From Prochlorococcus sp. AG-363-B05 (GTDB taxonomy: Bacteria; Cyanobacteriota; Cyanobacteriia; PCC-6307; Cyanobiaceae), in NCBI GenBank assembly GCA_003278445.1, contig QCFD01000002.1, forward strand, positions 62,001 to 126,000: DNA of 64,000 nucleotides, written 5' to 3'. The notes beneath the pieces are model-generated. The model saw only the letters and a list, made by a program, of their open reading frames with translations. It was not told where the DNA came from and did no database searches. The translations under genes were made by a program, and so were the position numbers. Shown here one piece after another: positions 54,174 to 56,845 of the stretch; the first letter of the stretch is position 1, and each line of letters opens with the position of its first letter.

Positions 54174-54308
54174 CTAATTAATAGACCTTGTCCAGCTTTT
54201 TGTGCGTTTTGTTTTTTTTTCTCCTTTTAATATGAAAACCATTAGCAAAGGAGCTATTCCCATCAAGGGAACTACCAGGTTCATCGCGTAATTATGGGTT
54301 TCCTCCAT
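54174..54308 (-). CDS. 44-aa possible membrane peptide
   Basis: MEETHNYAMNLVVPLMGIAPL... has one hydrophobic helix (about 9-27), then a strongly basic tail GEKKTKRTKSW. The frame has better base composition than the surroundings. An inner start (MNLVVPL) is possible. Unknown function. Confidence 0.45.
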   Translation of the reverse strand: MEETHNYAMNLVVPLMGIAPLLMVFILKGEKKTKRTKSWTRSIN

Positions 54309-54460: not shown

Positions 54461-54703
54461 ATGGGAAAACAAATACCATACATGAATAATAATTTCATCA
54501 ACCTTCAATACCTTGCTCCTAAAGGTTTTATAGGCTTTTGGATTCTATTTATAGGTCTGATTTTTACAGTAGTTATTTTCAATTTTGTTTTTTTTAGACT
54601 TAATGAAGACAACTATTCATACAAGGATAGAGAAAGAAAATATCTTGAGAAAGAAAAACAGAAAAATAAAATAGCTAGGCTTTATCCAAAAAAAGAAGAT
54701 TAG
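54461..54703 (+). CDS. Small single-pass membrane protein
   Basis: 80 aa. One hydrophobic helix, GFIGFWILFIGLIFTVVIFNFVFF, then a basic, coiled-coil-like tail (YKDRERKYLEKEKQKNKIARLYPKK). Met8 (MNNNFINLQ) is another possible start. Not recognised; thylakoid or plasma membrane location likely. Confidence 0.55.
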   Translation: MGKQIPYMNNNFINLQYLAPKGFIGFWILFIGLIFTVVIFNFVFFRLNEDNYSYKDRERKYLEKEKQKNKIARLYPKKED

Positions 54704-55037: not shown

Positions 55038-55397
55038 ATGAAACCTATGGCTTCGAATCGAGCAAACCCTAGTATCAGTCTTAATGAGCAGGCCCCTCTT
55101 TCCGATTCTGGGAAGCAAGTTCCTGCAGCTTTATCAATGATGATGGACTCAATGACAAGCATGGTAGAAAGAGCAAAAATAGATTTAGAGAATGTTGATC
55201 AAAGAGCAAGAGCTGACCTTGAGAACATCGACCAAAGAGCAAGAAAAGATGTTGCCCTCCTCGATCAAAGAGCAAGAGAAGATATTCAAAAAATTGATCA
55301 AAAAGCCAGAAAAGATATAGCTATTCTTGATCAAAGAGCAAGAGCTGATCATGACCTATTGAGAAAGGTAAGAAAAGCTAGAGAATTAACCTCTTGA
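55038..55397 (+). CDS. Hendecad-repeat coiled-coil protein
   Basis: 119 aa. After a low-complexity N-terminus (about 1-45), residues 49-103 are five exact-length 11-residue repeats of the form D-[LVI]-x-x-[VIL]-D-Q-[RK]-A-R-x, and a sixth degenerate unit follows (DHDLLRKVRKA). Eleven-residue periodicity gives an unbroken right-handed coiled coil or an amphipathic helix that can lie on membranes. No signal peptide. Met4 is a possible start. No known family; it sits next to the predicted 6S RNA. Confidence 0.7.
   Translation: MKPMASNRANPSISLNEQAPLSDSGKQVPAALSMMMDSMTSMVERAKIDLENVDQRARADLENIDQRARKDVALLDQRAREDIQKIDQKARKDIAILDQRARADHDLLRKVRKARELTS
55182..55346 (+). repeat. Five 33-bp tandem repeats in coding sequence
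   Basis: Each unit carries GATCAAAGAGCAAGA or a close variant. Units keep strict 33-bp spacing with protein-level conservation greater than DNA identity, which points to duplication followed by selection on the protein. Confidence 0.8.
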
Positions 55398-55497
55398 AAT
55401 AAGATATTCAATAGAGGCTAAAGGAAAAAAATCATAGACCTTAAACAATTTAACTCTTAAAGAAACAAGAACATTGCACCGCAATCAATCAGAAGAT

Positions 55498-55675
55498 AGT
55501 ACCGCTTTGCCGTAAGGCCCAAGAAGCATCGACCTGGAAGAACCAGAAGGGGAATCAAAGTGAGGCTTCGTTTCCAGGACAAAGCTGGTATACGTTGCTT
55601 TCACGACAGTTTCCCCAAATCGAAAGAGAGTCAGATCAGAGCACTTGAGAAGGCCTTTACCAACAAAGCAGTACT
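55498..55675 (-). ncRNA. ssaA: Probable 6S RNA beside purK
   Basis: A GC-rich island of about 178 bp that folds as a long rod. The ends pair as AGTACcGCTTTG (55498-55509) with CAAAGCaGTACT (55664-55675), then GTAAGGCC with GGCCTTTAC, then CAAG with CTTG. Inside are GGGGAA/TTCCCC, GTGA/TCAC and a terminal CCAG/CTGG hairpin, leaving a central bubble with a small hairpin (CTGG-AAGAA-CCAG). This is the size and architecture of 6S RNA, which binds RNA polymerase, and cyanobacterial 6S (ssaA/Yfr7) is known to neighbour purK. The minus strand is preferred: a -10-like TAGATT lies upstream, a hairpin with a T-rich tail lies downstream, and the small bubble hairpin then falls on the 3' side. Strand is less certain than identity. 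Confidence 0.68.
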
Positions 55676-55699
55676 AACATTAATCTAAACAAAATATCA

Positions 55700-56845
55700 T
55701 TAAGAGGTAGGCCAAATTGACCTTATAGTTTTTAAAACTTCTAGAGCTTCTTTTCTTCTAGAAGTCACATCTTTATTATTCAAAAGATAAGTGACGTGGC
55801 CAAGCTTTCTACCTATTTTTTCTTCTTCTTTTTCATACCAGTGTATATTCAAGCCAGGAATAGCCCTTAAATTATCCAACCTTTGACTCAGTGATATCGG
55901 ATAGTTACTTTTCAAACCAAGCAAGTTAACCATTAAAGCACCATCAACAAGCATCTCAGGCATGGGTACATTAATACCAGACGTGATACAAATTTGTTGA
56001 TCAAACTGACTGCTACTACATGCATCTATAGAAAAATGACCTGAATTATGAGTTCTTGGCGCTATTTCATTCACCAGCAATCCTTCAGCTCCATAAAAAA
56101 ATTCAATTGCAATAACACCAACATAATCCAACTCAGCCAGCAACGAAGAGACGATGTTTTTCACCAAAAGATCAACGTCATGGTCAATATCAGCTGGAGC
56201 AAGCACCCAGTCACAAACTTGCCTTGTTTGGTAAGTTTCTACAATTGGCAAACTACGAACTATACCTTTTGAATCCCTACTAGAAACAACAGACAATTCT
56301 TTTTCGAAAGGAACCCACTTCTCCAGCATCCATTGTTCGTCAGTCTCAACTTCAATTAATTCTTCCAGTTGTTTGAAATTTTTAATAATTTTTGTTCCTT
56401 TGCCGTCATATCCACCTTTAGCAGCTTTTGCCATCAGTGGGAAGGTCCATTCGTCAGGAAGATCAACTTTTGATACTTTCTCTAAAGGGATAGGTAACCA
56501 TTCAGGACAGGGTATATCAAGACTGTTCAATAACTCTCTTTGAGTTATTTTATTAATTAAAGGACTTATGGATTGAAGTCTAGGAATAAACGACACTCCA
56601 TTATTTTGAAGAAAAAGCAAACTTGGTATATCAACCCATTCATTCTCAAAGGTTATCAATCTTGACTTTTCGGCAAGAAGTTTTGTGCCCTCAGCGTTTT
56701 TGGGATCATGCAATATGACTTGATTCGTCTTTTTTGCAGCAGGATCAGTTTTGGCTGACGTCTGCACAACGACATCAACATCTCTTTTCTTTCCAGCCTC
56801 AACAAGAAGCATTGCAAGTTGTCCACCACCCACAACCCCAATCAT
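55700..56845 (-). CDS. purK: N5-carboxyaminoimidazole ribonucleotide synthase PurK
   Basis: 381 aa ATP-grasp enzyme. GVVGGGQLAMLLVEAGKK at the N-terminus, MAKAAKGGYDGKGTKII (glycine-rich loop), EKWVPFEKELSVVSSRD, and VNEIAPRTHNSGHFSIDAC (metal and substrate site) are diagnostic. It carboxylates AIR in purine synthesis, with PurE. Its ATG overlaps the stop of a small upstream ORF (TAATG). The predicted 6S RNA lies 24 bp beyond its stop. Confidence 0.97.
   Translation of the reverse strand: MIGVVGGGQLAMLLVEAGKKRDVDVVVQTSAKTDPAAKKTNQVILHDPKNAEGTKLLAEKSRLITFENEWVDIPSLLFLQNNGVSFIPRLQSISPLINKITQRELLNSLDIPCPEWLPIPLEKVSKVDLPDEWTFPLMAKAAKGGYDGKGTKIIKNFKQLEELIEVETDEQWMLEKWVPFEKELSVVSSRDSKGIVRSLPIVETYQTRQVCDWVLAPADIDHDVDLLVKNIVSSLLAELDYVGVIAIEFFYGAEGLLVNEIAPRTHNSGHFSIDACSSSQFDQQICITSGINVPMPEMLVDGALMVNLLGLKSNYPISLSQRLDNLRAIPGLNIHWYEKEEEKIGRKLGHVTYLLNNKDVTSRRKEALEVLKTIRSIWPTS

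Follow-up and report, generated by a model that had tools for sequence, protein, structure and literature searches.

A 6S RNA gene in its standard place downstream of purK in Prochlorococcus sp. AG-363-B05

The element at positions 55498-55675 of the DNA analysed here (the window, 64,000 nucleotides of contig QCFD01000002.1 from Prochlorococcus sp. AG-363-B05) is almost certainly 6S RNA, encoded by the single 6S gene of a Prochlorococcus-type genome, and its place beside purK is an ordinary and standard one that is known already. When the whole window was scanned against Rfam, 6S RNA (RF00013) was the sole family to score above any gathering score, with a match on the minus strand from 55677 to 55495 that covers the complete model (1-187 of 187) at 96.1 bits (E 5.5e-18; cut-off, 46.4 bits). 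The initial annotation had identified the segment as 6S RNA and had proposed a search with the 6S model on both strands; that search found the minus strand only, the full-length match bears out the identity, and the coordinates given for the RNA were right to within 2-3 nt of the model boundaries. The mature RNA probably spans about 55675 to 55498.

Table 1. Positions of the 6S RNA gene and associated features in the window
Feature	Position	Strand	Basis
6S RNA gene (yfr7/ssaA)	55495..55677	-	Rfam RF00013 model boundaries and covariation
GTG-started 42-aa frame antisense to 6S RNA, judged not a gene	55560..55688	+	unconserved
-10-like box (TAGATT) shortly before the RNA start	55682..55687	-	conserved in relatives
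purK, 5-(carboxyamino)imidazole ribonucleotide synthase	55700..56845	-	NCBIfam; upstream neighbour, same strand

The GC content of the segment is 48.3%, compared with 32.1% for the window as a whole, and only 0.06% of the window's 178-nt stretches reach this value. Both strands pair end to end when folded and form a terminal hairpin, a bubble and an internal stem, the minus strand at -62.5 kcal/mol (z -4.14) and the plus strand at -58.2 kcal/mol (z -4.31), and for neither strand was any of 200 shuffles as stable, so that composition and folding together corroborate the GC-rich rod that had been described from the letters. Assignment of the strand by folding energy was dropped, with both strands at a z of about -4; because the energies are so alike, the strand of the RNA is set by the covariance model.

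Support for the structure itself comes from 56 distinct relative sequences, onto whose alignment the Rfam 6S structure was transferred. Two-sided pair changes occurred in 112 cells, against a shuffled mean of 47.0 (sd 5.6), and none of 500 shuffles reached that number; 19 pairs carried changes on both sides where shuffling gave a mean of 13.0, and the covariation score was 0.121 as opposed to 0.072. Since related sequences can beat shuffles through kinship alone, even where there is no structure, the argument rests on the count of 19 pairs against 13.0 and on controls in which the 3′ partners were slid out of register, every measure of which was lower than for the true pairing. The closing stem, in which 9 of 17 pairs have changed on both sides, and the terminal part hold most of this support, while the inner helix beside the bubble shows no two-sided changes and speaks neither for nor against its pairing. 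An RNAalifold consensus pairs the bubble somewhat differently and includes an alternative helix as well as a 4-bp hairpin (CTGG/CCAG) on the 3′ side; as these pairs either do not vary or have changed on one side only, they are outside the reach of covariation. The features that define membership in the 6S family, namely a closing stem, a large central bubble and a terminal stem with conserved pairing, are all present, and the 5′ side of the RNA contains a long invariant block, GTGCTCTGATCTGACT.

The upstream neighbour is identified as purK by two NCBIfam equivalogs, each scoring above its cut-off (PRK06019.1-5, 432.6 bits; TIGR01161, 346.3 bits), and purK identity to Prochlorococcus single-cell genomes, the closest named records, is up to 87%. 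The RNA follows purK immediately, in the same orientation and about 22-25 nt past the stop codon, as the initial annotation correctly saw in placing it beyond the 3′ end of purK. The further suggestion, that 6S RNA usually sits upstream of purK and that the arrangement here reflects a local rearrangement, does not hold. The RNA is on the purK strand, 25-38 nt past the end of the purK match, at all 85 loci that have a close 6S match (nhmmer matches to the window's 6S sequence in Prochlorococcus and marine Synechococcus, which include the window's own locus and some genomes fetched twice, and which comprise 57 distinct RNA sequences). This synteny, together with the 2005 report by Axmann and colleagues, whose four strains all have yfr7 downstream of purK (PMC1242208), indicates that the upstream premise was mistaken and that there was no rearrangement. 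The same source places 6Sa/ssaA directly downstream of purK in PCC 6301 and PCC 6803 (PMC1242208). Among 16 more distant cyanobacterial loci, purK is present in the stretch in eight, and the RNA is downstream in seven of these and upstream in one. The single case of reverse order is a more distant cyanobacterium (L003, 159-1683), in which the 6S RNA and purK share a strand and the RNA precedes purK by about 190 nt. By its coordinates this locus shows that the order is not universal, and it is what might be said for a shift of the 6S gene, in the present genome, from a place before purK to one after it; given the uniform position in the close relatives, its prevalence in the distant ones and its prior publication (PMC1242208), there is next to no chance that such a displacement took place.

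The proximity of the RNA to purK, on the same strand and 22 nt past its stop, might instead mean that the element is a structure in the 3′ UTR of the purK mRNA or is made mainly by processing of the purK transcript, and two observations elsewhere lean in this direction: high-light Prochlorococcus is known to make longer 6S transcripts (PMC1242208), and in Nodularia a start lies inside purK. Against this stand the complete 6S architecture with its sequence blocks, the mapping of Yfr7 5′ ends in MED4 and SS120 (PMC1242208), and a -10-like box that is conserved and suitably spaced. In 36 of 36 close relatives, a TA[GAT]ATT motif (TAGATT or TAAATT) precedes the RNA start by 5-7 nt; about 17% of shuffled sequences would be expected to contain one by chance. 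The box is consistent with a promoter of the 6S RNA's own, a putative function that we read from its sequence, and we consider origin as a purK 3′ UTR or processing product very unlikely. It is improbable, too, that read-through from purK yields part of the 6S RNA as a longer form, in the manner of high-light Prochlorococcus; if it did, 6S levels would be tied to purine synthesis. At the other end of the gene, a terminator scan found no intrinsic terminator after the 6S RNA, and a weak hairpin within 55455-55500 folded no better than shuffles. The 6S RNA of marine Synechococcus and of low-light Prochlorococcus measures 175-185 nt on published Northern blots (PMC1242208).

A reading of the locus as protein-coding would center on the GTG-started frame of the plus strand, translation of which had been named at the outset as grounds for abandoning the 6S interpretation. 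Its predicted product has tblastn identities of up to 86% at the amino acid level to some relatives, but DNA that is conserved for the RNA it encodes would be expected to give this anyway. The frame itself is broken: a 1-nt length difference shifts it out of phase in most close relatives, and in four of them (L033, L046, L029 and L018) it stops after 7 codons. Variable sites are spread evenly over its codon positions (14/40, 14/39 and 10/39), with no sign of codon-position bias, the compensatory changes suit an RNA, and the product has no family match. Analogous antisense frames, PMT0670 and SYNW1307, were annotated over the 6S RNA in two genomes and had no detectable expression (PMC1242208). 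That the frame is a translated small protein gene is therefore hardly credible, and the segment is best regarded as 6S RNA.

The source genome (1.09 Mb, 67% complete) contains one 6S match. Matches were found in 56 of 60 relatives, including 37 of 37 well-completed ones, and the matching relatives carry one copy per genome with a single exception. A second copy in the source genome is not expected from these complete one-copy relatives, the genome itself being 67% complete. Thus the model matches at this locus and no second gene was found, the opposite of the combination that the initial annotation had named as fatal to its identification. In Prochlorococcus AG-315-B03, purK and the 6S RNA occur twice on one contig (L053 4035-5540 and L054 515-2020); the doubled stretch of 1506 bp is 100% identical and arose either by recent duplication or as an artefact of single-cell assembly.

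Several small frames lie nearby. The 6S gene is adjoined by a plus-strand frame (55038-55397) for a 119-aa protein made up largely of a repeated DQRARxDxxxI-like unit, which is 67-86% conserved in the genus, has no Pfam match and has only marginal matches in NCBIfam and PHROGs. Beyond the 6S gene are an 80-aa frame (54461-54703, plus strand) with no Pfam or NCBIfam family and a 44-aa frame (54174-54308, minus strand) with no NCBIfam or PHROGs family, both about 62-90% conserved in relatives and in the same order. The published map of SS120 places another RNA, yfr6, in this neighbourhood.

We propose that the RNA is transcribed from its own promoter on the minus strand in the gap right after purK. 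By analogy with the 6S family, we further propose that its rod with a central bubble would imitate an open promoter and should be bound by RNA polymerase carrying the housekeeping sigma factor in place of promoters, that this binding would shift transcription between growth states, and that the polymerase would be released after a short product RNA is synthesized from the bubble. Binding of the housekeeping polymerase and templating of a product RNA by 6S RNA are known from E. coli, whose SsrS belongs to the same covariance model (RF00013) at full length, although it has other genomic neighbours; inhibition of RNA polymerase was shown in E. coli and is predicted here. The closest known counterpart is Yfr7 of Prochlorococcus SS120, MIT 9313 and MED4 and Synechococcus WH 8102, which matches the present RNA in place (right after purK and in the same orientation), in its rod with a central bubble, in size class (SS120, MIT 9313 and WH 8102 have RNAs of 174-175 nt) and in having a spurious antisense frame of the same kind (PMC1242208), and which differs from it at the sequence level only. 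The 6Sa/ssaA RNAs of PCC 6301 and PCC 6803, also of the 6S family and downstream of purK, are more distant (PMC1242208). In Synechocystis, where function was studied through deletion, loss of ssaA slowed recovery from nitrogen starvation and recruitment of SigA (PMC5721685). Because the effect there appears to be recruitment of SigA upon nitrogen recovery rather than its simple sequestration (PMC5721685), the mechanistic detail may differ in the present organism as well.

The 6S RNA described here is of a kind that is missed by annotation based on open reading frames, and it invites the naming of a false antisense gene. The order of purK and 6S RNA, which the group conserves, can serve as a marker and is useful as such, though not new.
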